In this document: piece after piece, positions 1,156 through 42,432 of the stretch
How positions within the stretch are numbered: position 1 is the stretch's first letter
How the letters are laid out: each line of letters opens with the position of its first letter
Origin: Wenzhouxiangella sp. XN201
GTDB lineage: Bacteria > Pseudomonadota > Gammaproteobacteria > Xanthomonadales > Wenzhouxiangellaceae
Assembly: GCF_011008905.1 (NCBI RefSeq)
Contig: NZ_JAAIVI010000017.1
Span: 868,001-932,000 of the forward strand
DNA: 64,000 nt
Reading direction: 5' to 3'
Notes under the pieces: generated by a model
Seen by the model: the letters and a program-made list of their open reading frames with translations, nothing else
What the model was told of the DNA's origin: nothing
Database searches by the model: none
Program-made: the position numbers and the translations under genes

Positions 1156-1303
1156 GGAACCACGGAAGGCACGGAAAGCACGGAAGACTCGAACGGAATC
1201 TATTCCGACATAATTCGAGCGCAATCAACCTGGCCATAGAGCGTGCCCGGAGACGGAGTGATGCCCGAATTTCTTCCGTGATTTCCGTGTCTTCCGTGGT
1301 TCC
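1156..1303. repeat. Facing array pair, unit CACGGAARN (period 9)
   Basis: Left arm 1156-1187 holds three CACGGAA heptamers spaced by 2 nt; right arm 1272-1303 is its reverse complement over 32 nt with only two differences. The 84-nt interior has no gene. Outer ends read GGAACC/GGTTCC. It is one of five loci here whose unit fits the heptamer CRCRRAD. It fills the ssb-rfbB gap. Confidence 0.8.
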
Positions 1304-2401: not shown

Positions 2402-2410
2402 AAAGAATAA

Positions 2411-2675
2411 TTGTCCACAGATGAACACAGATGGACACAGATTTGAAAAAGACCTTATGTCTGTGGAGCCTGACTTTCTGGTGGAAGATCAACTGATTGT
2501 CGAGATCAAGGCGGTGAAGGACTTGTCAGGCGAGCATCAGTCCCAATTGTTGAACTACTTGAGGGCAACCGGACTTGATGCCGGTTTGCTTGTCAATTTC
2601 GGAAAGCCACGGATACAGGTCAAACGCCTTGTTAATTAATATTTTTGTTTTTCATCTGTGTTCATCTGTGGACAA
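2411..2675. repeat. Facing array pair, unit CACAGATNNN, with GxxExxY cargo
   Basis: Left arm 2411-2450 holds three CACAGAT heptamers spaced by 3 nt, starting TTGTCCACAG and ending in AAAAA. Right arm 2648-2675 is the mirror: TTTTTCATCTGTG followed by another CATCTGTG and GGACAA. The unit fits CRCRRAD. The interior encodes the shortened GxxExxY protein, whose ATG lies inside the left arm. The cassette lies between rfbB and rfbA, genes of one pathway. Confidence 0.85.
2421..2639 (+). CDS. GxxExxY-family (PDDEXK_3) protein, N-terminally shortened
   Basis: 72 aa, against about 125 for the family (TIGR04256/PF13366, a PD-(D/E)XK-nuclease-like group of unknown role). The C-terminal half is clear: DFLVEDQLIVEIKAV keeps the catalytic-type Asp and the E-x-K, then QLLNYLRATGLDAGLLVNFG. 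The part carrying the name-giving GxxExxY motif is missing; the first residues, MNTDGHR, are encoded by the CACAGAT repeat arm itself. It is either a decayed remnant or a minimal cargo. Whether it is expressed or active is unknown. Confidence 0.6.
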   Translation: MNTDGHRFEKDLMSVEPDFLVEDQLIVEIKAVKDLSGEHQSQLLNYLRATGLDAGLLVNFGKPRIQVKRLVN

Positions 2676-2706
2676 ATAGGTTTTAGATTTTCAGGACAAT
2701 GACTGA

Positions 2707-7482: not shown

Positions 7483-7643
7483 CTCACGCAGAGCCGCGGA
7501 GCCGCAGAGTACGCAGAGAAAAAGAAAGAAAGAAAGAAAAAGGGCGGTGATGATCATCGCACTGCATCTCTCTGCTCATTCCCCGGCTTTTTTGAATCTC
7601 TTCTTTACTCTGCGCACTCAGCGACTCTGCGGCTCTGCGTGAG
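7483..7643. repeat. Facing array pair, unit CGCAGAGN, empty
   Basis: Left arm 7483-7523: CGCAGAG, CGCGGAG, CGCAGAG, CGCAGAG with 1-2 nt spacing, ending in an AAAAAG/AAAG purine run. Right arm 7604-7643 mirrors it (CTCTGCGTGAG at the outer edge). Interior of about 80 nt holds no gene. Unit fits CRCRRAD. It sits between the convergent DUF1684 and enoyl-CoA hydratase genes. Confidence 0.8.
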
Positions 7644-8500: not shown

Positions 8501-8631
8501 GTTAGCTGGTTGGCTTGTTTGCTAGTTTGCTGGTTCGGCGACTGGTTGCATTGCGGGGCGGCTTTGCCGCGAAAGGGTTGCCGGTATCGGAAACTATTGC
8601 CGAACCAGCCAACCAGCCAACCAGCCAACCG
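8501..8631. repeat. Facing array pair, octamer GGCTGGTT, empty
   Basis: Left arm 8501-8539 is four to five octamers (GCTGGTTG, GCTTGTTT, GCTAGTTT, GCTGGTTC) ending GGTTCGGC. Right arm 8599-8631 begins GCCGAACC and continues CAGCCAAC. The interior carries GCGGGGCGGCTTTGCCGCGA (8553-8572), a small hairpin motif also present in the array at 14.3-14.5 kb. Confidence 0.8.
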
Positions 8632-14246: not shown

Positions 14247-14307
14247 TGGGGGCTTCCGGTTGGTGATGCGGCAAATTGTAGCGCCGGGGCTGGCGGCGTG
14301 GGACTCT
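14244..14307 (-). promoter_or_regulatory. Leader shared with the enoyl-CoA hydratase gene (copy 2)
   Basis: Second copy of the block described at 8.44-8.50 kb: GGGGGCTTCCGGTTGG next to the start codon, ATTGTAGCG, then CGGGGCTGGCGGCGTG, followed at once by a GGCTGGTT array. The gene-strand TACAAT and GGAAG are kept in both copies. Confidence 0.55.
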
Positions 14308-14494
14308 GTTGGCTGGTTCGCTTGTTTGCTGGTTGGCTGGTTCGGCAACTGGGACTATTGGTGGGCGGCTGGGCCGCGAAGGTTCGGGAGACGCATCGTA
14401 GGCCAGTCTCCTCCAGCAATCTCGCGGCGTAGCCGCCCCGCAAATCCAGGGGGAGCCGAACCAGCCAACCAGCTAACCAGCGAACTAGCCAACA
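14308..14494. repeat. Facing array pair, octamer GGCTGGTT, empty
   Basis: Left arm 14308-14346 (five octamers) ends GGTTCGGC; right arm 14455-14494 begins GCCGAACC. The interior has GGGCGGCTGGGCCGCGAA next to the left arm and the mirror motif GCGGCGTAGCCGCCCCGC near the right arm, both related to the hairpin inside the array at 8.5 kb. The cassette ends 7 nt before the uvrA stop. Confidence 0.8.
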
Positions 14495-17377: not shown

Positions 17378-17484
17378 TGCTCACTGCCGGAAATGAAAGA
17401 CAAGCCTGCTAATATATCGCGCCTACTGTGATCGGCGCAAAGCAAACCTCGATTTCGGGGGTGGAGTCTGGCGGGAGCATGTAT

Positions 17485-17636
17485 GGAACCGCAGATTTCG
17501 CAGATTAGCGCAGATTTTTCTGGAGTTTGCCCTGCCTTCGAGACTGCACAGCCGGTAACCATGGACGCTTGGCGTAATGCCGCCGAAAATTCGCTTGTTC
17601 AAATAATCTGTGTCAATCTGCGAAATCTGCGGTTTC
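17485..17636. repeat. Facing array pair, unit CGCAGATNN, empty
   Basis: Left arm 17485-17519: GGAACCGCAGATTTCGCAGA and on to a third CGCAGAT followed by T's. Right arm 17602-17636 mirrors it with one CACAGAT variant. Outer ends GGAACC/GGTTTC recall the CACGGAA array. Interior of about 82 nt has no supported gene. Lies in the 370-nt uvrA-rplU gap. Confidence 0.8.
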
Positions 17637-17679
17637 AAGAACCCGGTCTCGACGACAGGCAGTGAGGGGCGGGTTTGCG

Positions 17680-18410: not shown

Positions 18411-18583
18411 CTTAAAATCTTTGGAACGCAAAGCAGCGAAGCAGCAAAGAACGCGAAGAAAAACAAATAAATATAATTCAGAATGTGTATGGAGCCCAGG
18501 CCGCTGCCGCCTCAGCTTTTCTATCTCTGATTAATTCACTTTGCGTTCTTTGCTGCTTCGCTGCTTTGCGTTTTAAAGGTTTT
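18411..18583. repeat. Facing array pair, CGCAAAG/AGCGAAG units, empty
   Basis: Left arm 18411-18459: CGCAAAG, AGCGAAG, AGCAAAG, CGCGAAG with short spacers, then AAAAA. Right arm 18539-18583 mirrors it, with the outer flank AAAATCTTTGGAACG answered by CGTTTTAAAGGTTTT. About 80 nt of AT-rich interior with no gene. Fills the rpmA-obgE gap. Confidence 0.8.
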
Positions 18584-40238: not shown

Positions 40239-40779
40239 GGTTGGCTAGTTTGCTGGTTTGCTTGTTGGCTGGTTCGGCAGCCGGGCGGGTTGGCGATTAC
40301 TCGCACAAGGCTGCTAGAATTTCTGGCAGCGTTGTCTGTAAGCTCTTGCTATGGGGACGATTTCTCGGTTTGAGGACATTGAGGCATGGAAAGAGGCTCG
40401 GGTGCTCGTGCAGCTCGTCTATCGTTGCTGCAGCAATACTGCGCTGAACCGGGATTTCGGTCTGCGAGATCAGTTACAGCGATCGGGGGTTTCGGTGATG
40501 GCCAATATCGCCGAGGGATTCGAGCGTAAGAATCCCAATGAATTCAAGCATTTCCTCCGAGTTGCCCGTGGGTCATGTGCCGAGGTGCAATCCCATCTGT
40601 ATGTCGCCCTCGATACCGGCCAGATCAAACCCAGTCAGTTCGAATTCCTGCAAAATCAAGCCATTAGCACCGCACGCAAGATCAGCGCATTTCAGCGCTA
40701 CCTGAACACCAATTAGCACCACCTCCAGAAGCGCCGAACCAGCCAACAAGCAAACCAGCCAACCAGCCAACCAGCCAAC
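40239..40779. repeat. Facing array pair, octamer GGCTGGTT, with four-helix-bundle cargo
   Basis: Left arm 40239-40278 (GGTTGGCT, AGTTTGCT, GGTTTGCT, TGTTGGCT, GGTTCGGC) and right arm 40733-40779 beginning GCCGAACC and continuing with CAGCCAAC units. The inner boundary GGTTCGGC/GCCGAACC is the same as in the two empty cassettes at 8.5 and 14.3 kb. The only content is the four-helix-bundle gene. Confidence 0.85.
40351..40716 (+). CDS. Four-helix-bundle protein (23S rRNA intervening-sequence/S23 family)
   Basis: 121 aa, complete. FEDIEAWKEARVLVQLVY, LRDQLQRSGVSVMANIAEGF and FLRVARGSCAEVQSHLYVAL are the hallmark blocks of TIGR02436/PF05635, first known from intervening sequences in 23S rRNA genes and related to the bAvd accessory protein of diversity-generating retroelements. 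No rRNA gene, reverse transcriptase or template repeat is near. Its gene is the sole cargo of a GGCTGGTT cassette and ends 16 nt from the right arm. No Shine-Dalgarno is seen. Function unknown. Confidence 0.9.
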   Translation: MGTISRFEDIEAWKEARVLVQLVYRCCSNTALNRDFGLRDQLQRSGVSVMANIAEGFERKNPNEFKHFLRVARGSCAEVQSHLYVALDTGQIKPSQFEFLQNQAISTARKISAFQRYLNTN

Positions 40780-41703: not shown

Positions 41704-42306
41704 GTGAGCGATCGCTGGCTGATCGTCGGCCTGGGCAACCCGGGCGCCAAGTACGAAAGAACCCGGCACAATGCCGGGTTCTGGTTTCTGGACGCCCTGG
41801 AACGCGCACAGCCGCTGGGCCTCAAACCCAACCGCAAACTCCACGGCGAAGCGGCCAAAACGCCGTTCGCCGGGGCTGACTGCGTGTTCCTCAAGCCCGA
41901 CACCTTCATGAACGAATCCGGCCAGGCGGTGCGCGCCGCGGCCGATTATTTCGACGTGCCGGCCGAGCGCACGGTCGTCGCCTACGACGATCTCGACCTG
42001 CCGCCGGGCAGCGTCAAGCTACGGCAGGGCGGGGGCCACGGCGGGCACAACGGCCTCAGGAGCATTTTCAGCCACCTGGGCGACCAGAACTTCTGGCGCG
42101 TCCGCATCGGCATCGGCCACCCGGGCTTCAAGGACGCCGTAACCCCCTGGGTGCTGGGCCGAGCCAACGCCGAGGACGAAAAAGCCATCCAGGAAGCCGC
42201 ACAGCGTGCTGTCGAGGCTTTGCCGGATCTCCTGCGGGGTGAGCCGGGCGAGGCGATGAAGAGGTTGCACACCCGGGACTCGGGACTCGGGACTCGGGAC
42301 TCGTAG
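41704..42306 (+). CDS. pth: Peptidyl-tRNA hydrolase
   Basis: Releases tRNA from peptidyl-tRNA that drops off the ribosome. 200 aa: WLIVGLGNPGAKYERTRHNA with the catalytic His, KPDTFMNESGQAV, and VAYDDLDLPPGSVKLRQGGG. The GTG start is normal for the family. The C-terminal residues after about 190 ([11 protein letters not shown]) are encoded by a CGGGACT tandem repeat, so the natural C-terminus has been replaced or extended by the array. Confidence 0.94.
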   Translation: MSDRWLIVGLGNPGAKYERTRHNAGFWFLDALERAQPLGLKPNRKLHGEAAKTPFAGADCVFLKPDTFMNESGQAVRAAADYFDVPAERTVVAYDDLDLPPGSVKLRQGGGHGGHNGLRSIFSHLGDQNFWRVRIGIGHPGFKDAVTPWVLGRANAEDEKAIQEAAQRAVEALPDLLRGEPGEAMKRLHTRDSGLGTRDS

Positions 42307-42432
42307 TGGGGGTGTCTTCATGGGTAGTGACTTAAGCGCAGAATGGGTGGTGCGCCAGACTCGACAGGACTCGGGTATTCCTCTCGACTCTCTGAATCGC
42401 GAGTCCCGGGTCCCGAGTCCCGAGTCCCGGAG
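42274..42432. repeat. Facing array pair, heptamer GGGACTC, empty
   Basis: Left arm 42274-42301 is four exact CGGGACT heptamers inside the last codons of pth. Right arm 42400-42432 is AGTCCCG, GGTCCCG, AGTCCCG, AGTCCCG. About 98 nt between them hold no gene. The right arm ends 60 nt before ychF. Confidence 0.85.

Follow-up and report, generated by a model that had tools for sequence, protein, structure and literature searches.

Genes of the GxxExxY family (TIGR04256/PF13366) are bracketed by two facing arrays of a degenerate 7-nt word at 86 of 110 loci in all, the distant ones being the best 80 of at least 581. We regard this link between GxxExxY genes and facing CRCNRAK arrays as firm. Together with gene-less pairs of the same build, such elements resemble miniature mobile DNA of a kind that has attracted little notice. 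We favour, at a probability of about 0.55, the reading that they form a two-part system similar to REPINs: the GxxExxY nuclease would move or copy the facing pairs, and those without a gene would rely on it. The starting point was a stretch of 64,000 nt, called here the window.

Results

Facing word arrays in the window and in its genome

The initial annotation had listed five cassettes in the window. All five were found again at their places, their arms being recovered by an independent inverted-repeat search (Table 1). That inventory was nevertheless incomplete, as four further cassettes of facing arrays with G-rich words are present, and cassette 2 contains a truncated nuclease gene. The usual arm consists of 3-4 copies of a 7-nt word with a period of 8-10 nt.

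Table 1. Facing-array cassettes and the genes inside them, in window coordinates
Feature	Position	Strand	Description
Cassette 1	1156-1303	.	Word CACGGAA; arms 1156-1187 and 1272-1303; ssb-rfbB junction; gene-less
Cassette 2	2408-2678	.	Word CACAGAT; arms 2408-2433 and 2653-2678; rfbB-rfbA junction
Truncated GxxExxY (PF13366) nuclease ORF	2421-2639	+	5' end missing; inside cassette 2
Cassette 3	7483-7643	.	Word CGCAGAG; arms 7483-7538 and 7588-7643; gene-less
G-rich facing pair (GGTTGGC type)	8508-8630	.	Gene-less
G-rich facing pair	14307-14494	.	Word type of the 40 kb cassette; gene-less
Cassette 4	17484-17637	.	Word CGCAGAT; arms 17484-17519 and 17602-17637; upstream of rplU; gene-less
Cassette 5	18411-18583	.	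CGCAAAG with AGC interruptions; arms 18414-18475 and 18522-18583; rpmA-obg junction; gene-less
Facing pair (GGTTGGC type) round four-helix-bundle gene	40239-40772	.	Arms 40239-40278 and 40733-40772
Four-helix-bundle / 23S_rRNA_IVP (PF05635) gene	40351-40716	+	Match 40372-40686, 111 bits
Facing pair, word GGGACTC	42273-42430	.	Arms 42273-42303 and 42400-42430; gene-less

Three-copy arrays of CRCRRAD, the core that had been proposed for the heptamers, occur six times in the window versus 0.04 times per dinucleotide shuffle, and facing pairs of them occur twice versus 0 in 100 shuffles. The arrays are thus far beyond chance. The degenerate core was drawn too narrowly, the pattern over many loci being CRCNRAK. 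With the wider word CRCNRAD, a pair finder recovered four of the five cassettes and missed cassette 5, whose words are broken by AGC; over 16 sources, it returned 11 facing pairs (two with one common arm) versus 0.0 expected. The arms of cassette 5 are the long arms of a gene-bearing locus of the same genome (L004). The outermost word in the right arm of cassette 1 also contains the start of a tandem duplication of 24 nt (1296-1343), whose two units agree, by eye, at 23 of 24 positions.

The source genome (G000; 3.13 Mb, 22 contigs, 97.9% complete) contains 63 exact triples of CGCAGAT and 39 of CACGGAA (36 once overlaps are merged), versus 0 for each reversed pattern. Arms less than 500 bp apart were always facing (19/19 pairs for CGCAGAT, 10/10 for CACGGAA, 29/29 together), and the remaining arms had no exact-triple partner within 500 bp. 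The finder recovered seven cassettes in 400 kb of this genome sampled outside the window and one in 100 kb of G026, where a PF13366 gene is present. It recovered none in 300 kb drawn from three order-level relatives that had no PF13366 match.

Most cassettes found in the source genome are gene-less. A set of 38, with gaps of up to 260 nt, was assembled from the window, the 400 kb sample, the gene loci of the source genome and part of the loci of two pattern searches. Cassettes avoid genes, since only 6 of these 38 are fully contained in an open frame of at least 200 aa, versus 90% of size-matched random intervals.

The gene between the arms

The open reading frame inside cassette 2 encodes the C-terminal half of a GxxExxY protein (PF13366, 64.9 bits for a cut-off of 22; profile positions 59-116 of 117), and the orthologue of this cassette in G003 has the same arms and a full-length gene. 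Four more copies are present in the source genome (L001-L004), all four flanked by facing arrays. At the near and distant loci examined, GxxExxY was the gene between the arms; pairs of the source genome were sought with gaps of up to 260 nt. In the source and related genomes together, facing arms with an alignment score of at least 30 were found at 28 of the 32 loci with both flanks, and were not found in the examined flank at the other four (L013, L015, L021 and L029). This sample covers 33 of 42 match rows, the 33rd locus (L009) being at a contig edge.

The distant loci are the best 80 of at least 581 from a scan of GTDB genomes. Of the 78 with both flanks, 58 had facing arms and 20 showed none in the examined flank; among 281 control windows taken from these loci, 1 had them. 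The hosts belong to Bacteroidota, Pseudomonadota, Acidobacteriota, Chloroflexota, Verrucomicrobiota, Cyanobacteriota, Planctomycetota and other phyla, and include one archaeon.

A gene-bearing cassette of about 450-500 bp reads arm, nuclease gene, inverted arm, with a median distance of 20-21.5 nt between arm end and gene match. Ten of 114 loci have the gene between two complete facing pairs, an arrangement like that known for RAYT genes. No gene-bearing copy with the word CACGGAA, in spite of its 39 matches, was seen in the source genome, and in G013 a decayed CGCAGAT cassette is present while a PF13366 match is absent. A search with one query protein gave 0 matches in 50,697 phage records; matches were found in 7 of 72,556 plasmid records. 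By their translated flanks, nuclease cassettes of one protein branch adjoin sufB at L001, L025, L028 and L033, in genomes of three genera, the site of L001 being the one read a second time.

A predicted nuclease under selection

All 18 aligned members matched TIGR04256. Every one of 106 proteins has D62, E72 and K74, while Q86 is present in 105 and Y90 in 104, giving a D...ExK...QxxxY signature that we take to be that of RecB, Cas4 and lambda exonuclease. The predicted structure has a mean pLDDT of 95.5, and the folds closest to it are Cas4 SSO0001 (E 1.9e-4, TM 0.61 by query length) and lambda exonuclease; among solved structures, none was related to the protein by sequence at E up to 1. On this model GxxExxY is a predicted RecB/Cas4-like PD-(D/E)XK nuclease. 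The dN/dS ratio was 0.05-0.12 in 7 of 10 pairs, the three others being saturated. The conserved residues, the model resembling Cas4 and lambda exonuclease and the low dN/dS together indicate a protein that is under purifying selection and is probably an active nuclease. The family descriptions returned for TIGR04256 and PF13366 give no function, and a literature search, mostly without subscription papers, found passing mentions at best and no link of the family to facing arrays.

Such a protein might be a self-regulated host or defence nuclease with the arms as its operators, gene-less pairs then being decayed loci. The short median distance from arm to gene, the strong purifying selection and the long persistence at carA-carB would all suit this reading. 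The strictly facing layout would not, and in the source genome the gene-less pairs outnumber the gene loci and have loops unrelated to the gene; we consider this explanation unlikely.

The word follows the nuclease tree

In a word-free count of 7-mers, most arms shared CGCAAAG and its shifts, CGCGAAG, CACAGAG and similar words. At least two CRCNRAK words on both sides were found at 61 of 72 loci with strong arms, versus 0.0 after shuffling of the arm letters. It had been suggested that a protein reads the heptamers as a degenerate code, and we therefore compared the words with a tree of the protein encoded between the arms. From 113 loci, five truncated proteins, one locus without a usable protein and the very long L106 were omitted; the tree contains 106 proteins, 67 labelled with a word and 39 unlabelled and uncounted.

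The word needed 33 changes on this tree versus 48.0 after shuffling, and none of 500 shuffles, which ignore the relatedness of loci, was as low. For the 47 distant loci alone, the figures were 25 versus 32.2 (0/500). By position, changes were reduced at word position 7 (3 versus 13.9), position 2 (13 versus 22.3) and position 5 (11 versus 22.1), with 0/500 shuffles in each case, whereas position 4 did not follow the tree (20 versus 22.3; 40/500). Phylum labels were also below shuffles, by less (30 versus 34.5, in an uncorrected version of the tree). Several words occur within the source genome alone, alongside different branches of the GxxExxY family, which speaks against a pure host effect. 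That the word tracks the nuclease tree fits recognition by the protein. The suggested code is thus supported by association, at positions 7, 2 and 5 and not at position 4.

Gain, loss and replacement at orthologous junctions

The five junctions of the window were compared with the orthologous sites of three syntenic relatives. In the 15 comparisons, the same word type was found in three, a facing pair of another word in four, a nested pair in one, and no facing pair in seven. Identical arrays at all orthologous loci, which the initial annotation had named as an argument against mobility, did not occur. In G011, a CACGGAA pair is nested inside a CGC-type pair at ssb-rfbB, and a second nested CACGGAA pair is present at rpmA-obg; nested cassettes are found at loci L115 and L144. 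The CGCAAAG cassette at rpmA-obg is common to G003 and G017 (pair L116/L117), its middle ~93 nt being inverted (score 126 inverted versus 30 direct). The site of cassette 4 is empty in G003, at a divergence too great for placing the junction.

Turnover was followed at two more junctions. Among 26 carA-carB loci, of which 23 were read, five had the nuclease cassette (G000, G002, G018, G019 and, decayed, G027), two a cassette with a four-helix-bundle gene (G022, G013), one a gene-less CACGAAG pair (G009) and three one-sided arrays of CCCCTGA-type heptamers (G008, G014 and G025, that is L235, L241 and L243); nothing was found in 11 and no clear pair in one (G023). The arms of six carA-carB elements from different species are nearly identical, while synonymous sites are near saturation (pS 0.68-0.78) in the four pairwise comparisons made among these loci. 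In G011, the empty carA-carB junction (L236) reads GGAAACCGCAGATG, which is the outer end of CGCAGAT elements, and can be either a word-like target or an excision footprint. The 17 same-genus sufB-sufC loci, read by eye, had a facing pair in 10, with at least five different words, a partial one in G003, a REP-like repeat in three and nothing in three. The REP-like inverted repeat, GTAGGTCGGGGTYRCATCCCCGAC, is that of G017, G009 and G019 (L263, L266 and L270).

A short cassette recurs in the source genome at loci L331 and L343, which are 313 kb from each other; the two copies are oppositely oriented and agree at 80 of 87 positions, and their homology stops at the element edges. A target-site duplication was searched for in 102 elements, with k of 2-11 nt and three offsets, and no excess identity was detected. 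Support for the proposed mobility comes from cassettes gained, lost, replaced or nested and from one dispersed copy pair; target duplication, not detected in the 102 elements, lends none. These data show gain, loss and copying, whatever the agent responsible.

Classical MITEs of a DDE-type insertion sequence would likewise be short, dispersed and gene-less elements with inverted ends, yet no duplication was found in any of the 102, and the gene seen between such arms is that of a nuclease. We rejected this candidate on the missing duplication, and hold it to be very unlikely.

Arms, loops and hairpins

The arms are direct arrays, with a best period of 8-10 in 132 of 144. Spacer lengths agreed between the two arms in 80 of 81 within-locus comparisons, versus 0.53 between loci of the same word, a figure biased by the selection of arms by mutual alignment. 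The idea that each arm is copied from the other is consistent with, though not proven by, these equal spacers. Slippage and template switching within hairpins are established behaviour, and replication slippage together with template switching in the hairpin would most simply keep the two arms alike, with which the equal spacers are also consistent. Hairpins were predicted for the DNA of four cassettes, of which two were truncated to 150 nt, with z values of -9.7, -3.6, -4.1 and -4.2.

Loop lengths of the 38 cassettes fall into classes, with 13 loops of 12-27 nt, 16 of 85-99 nt and none of 100-210 nt. Gene-less loops were unrelated to each other: in 351 pairs compared, the sole match was one locus counted twice. 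Searched against their own genome, 17 long loops were each single-copy, matching only themselves. Most copies are thus not visible duplicates of each other, and only one copy of a whole unit was seen. In 29 other genomes of the genus, with at most 12 candidates scored per genome, at least one loop was found again, at the site in G010 that is orthologous to its own. Two origins of the loops were tried and rejected. As remnants of the gene they were not convincing, the best long loop scoring 30 against ten GxxExxY genes for a shuffled-loop maximum of 27; as copies from elsewhere in the genome they failed, the 17 matches being the loops themselves.

The same build around an unrelated gene

The gene-less G-rich pairs at 8508 and 14307 have the word type of the 40 kb cassette, which holds a four-helix-bundle gene. 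Among the best 30 loci of such S23 (PF05635) genes (L199-L228), 19 have the gene between facing arrays of ~7-nt words, versus 1 of 106 controls. Since this protein is unrelated to GxxExxY, the build is wider than the nuclease. The G-rich cassettes of the window are tandem facing pairs whose words, GGTTGGC and GGGACTC, differ from the GGGAATC of Xanthomonas.

This observation bears on the main rival to a nuclease-driven system, namely that the repeats organise themselves. Replication slippage and hairpin template switching would then make and keep arrays at tolerant junctions. If the arrays had any use, it would be as hairpins of RNA or DNA, with the nuclease and S23 genes as cargo or parasites. 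Unrelated single-copy loops, the absence of target duplication, and the many words and one-sided arrays seen at the same junctions speak for such a process, as does the same build with S23; the published G-rich pairs, too, are generally not tied to mobile elements in the available part of that report (PMC4692102). It has more difficulty with a word that tracks the nuclease tree, with a gene bracketed in distant phyla, and with nested whole cassettes and a dispersed copy pair, which fit insertion better. We regard self-organisation as possible but rather doubtful.

Discussion

A two-part system

In the two-part reading that we favour, gene-bearing copies would supply the GxxExxY protein, and the gene-less facing pairs would be non-autonomous miniature dispersed elements. 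The protein would bind the word arrays and act where the facing arms form a hairpin, single-stranded or cruciform; its nuclease action would drive excision and re-insertion of the pair. Several observations count against this reading: loops are unrelated, no target duplication was found in 102 elements, 4 near and 20 distant gene loci showed no facing arms in the examined flank, word position 4 does not follow the tree, CACGGAA has no gene copy seen, the G013 cassette is without PF13366, and G-rich words with an unrelated protein show the same build and turnover. The loop length classes are also unaccounted for by nuclease mobility.

If the nuclease does move the pairs, few mobile DNA systems would be simpler than this one, with its ~125-residue protein and ~30-nt arm. 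Otherwise, the way in which words turn over at fixed operon junctions calls for a different account, and that would be no less interesting. The link with facing arrays gives the GxxExxY family, whose returned descriptions name no function, a testable role and substrate.

More tentatively, nuclease and S23 cassettes could belong to one superfamily of minimal mobile elements, each combining a lineage-specific word code with a small protein (nuclease with CRCNRAK, S23 with G-rich words), the nuclease reading the hairpin array and moving the pair without target duplication. We think this possible, at less than even odds; if true, such elements would be, to our knowledge, among the smallest protein-coding mobile DNAs. 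Cas4-type nucleases help to capture CRISPR spacers, and the 85-99-nt loop class may represent a DNA piece of measured length captured between the arms.

Comparison with known systems

The earlier statement that no element with this build was described goes too far. In Xanthomonas, GGGAATC heptamer arrays are reported to form convergent pairs, 70 and 75 of them in two genomes, in the accessible part of PMC4692102. There, GGGNATC arrays of Xanthomonas and Nostoc are read as quadruplex-forming and generally not associated with mobile elements. They resemble the cassettes in being tandem intergenic heptamers that occur as convergent pairs, and the GGGACTC cassettes of the window look like the same kind; they differ in that the accessible text describes no gene partner, and CRCNRAK is another word code (PMC4692102).

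Our main reading takes REPINs as its model. As far as the available text goes, they are extragenic facing doublets with a less conserved spacer and predicted hairpins, commonly spaced by 71 and 110 bp (PMC3116915). The cassettes share the facing doublet with spacer and hairpin potential (29/29 facing; fold z -3.6 to -9.7), and their arrangement is also REPIN-like in that the gene is carried by a minority of copies. In contrast, CRCNRAK arms are arrays of a 7-nt word where REPIN arms are REP palindromes, the partner here is a PD-(D/E)XK nuclease and there a Y1 transposase, and words vary between loci of one genome, with loops unrelated between copies. A REP is defined, in the part of PMC8266576 at hand, as a palindrome with a GTAG-like tag. 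No such palindrome was found in the arms, which are direct arrays. A Y1 (RAYT, PF01797) gene gave 0 matches in G000, at 97.9% completeness, and is present in 9 of 30 genomes of the genus. Membership in the REPIN-RAYT system is ruled out by the absence of Y1 from the source genome and by arms that are not REPs.

The pairs might still be REPINs whose RAYT acts from outside, given facing doublets with hairpins and the Y1 genes of those 9 genomes; such an agent would have to work in a genome without a Y1 match, on arms that are not palindromic REPs and with words that track the GxxExxY tree, and we find it extremely improbable.

For the S23 genes, a parallel is the intervening sequence of 23S rRNA. 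In the available part of PMC4990558, one with an S23 gene is 428 nt long, with terminal inverted repeats and a sporadic spread. One small gene stands between inverted repeats in both cases, the same S23 family being found here between facing arrays. However, intervening sequences lie in a helix of 23S rRNA, are processed by RNase III and have a 28-bp stem, and word arrays are not described in that part of the source (PMC4990558). The S23 protein also differs from GxxExxY. The cassettes lie between protein genes, and an Rfam scan of the window gave 0 matches, so that no location inside a 23S rRNA gene was found.

Two further kinds of heptamer repeat can be compared. In the P6b stem of the Nostoc tRNA-Leu intron, degenerate heptanucleotide repeats of variable copy number pair into a hairpin; they are part of an intron stem, and no gene partner is described in the accessible text (PMC3488679). 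The link of GxxExxY with facing arrays offers one frame for the Xanthomonas G-rich pairs, the S23 genes in rRNA insertions and the Nostoc intron heptamer stems. The TAACTGA arrays of Beggiatoaceae are likewise intergenic heptamer arrays, in unrelated lineages, and differ in being nearly all one-sided, with 169 direct sets and one indirect repeat according to the part of PMC4679880 available. A one-sided direct array, of the octamer TTMACACT, was also seen at the rfbB-rfbA junction of G011 and G019, in place of cassette 2.
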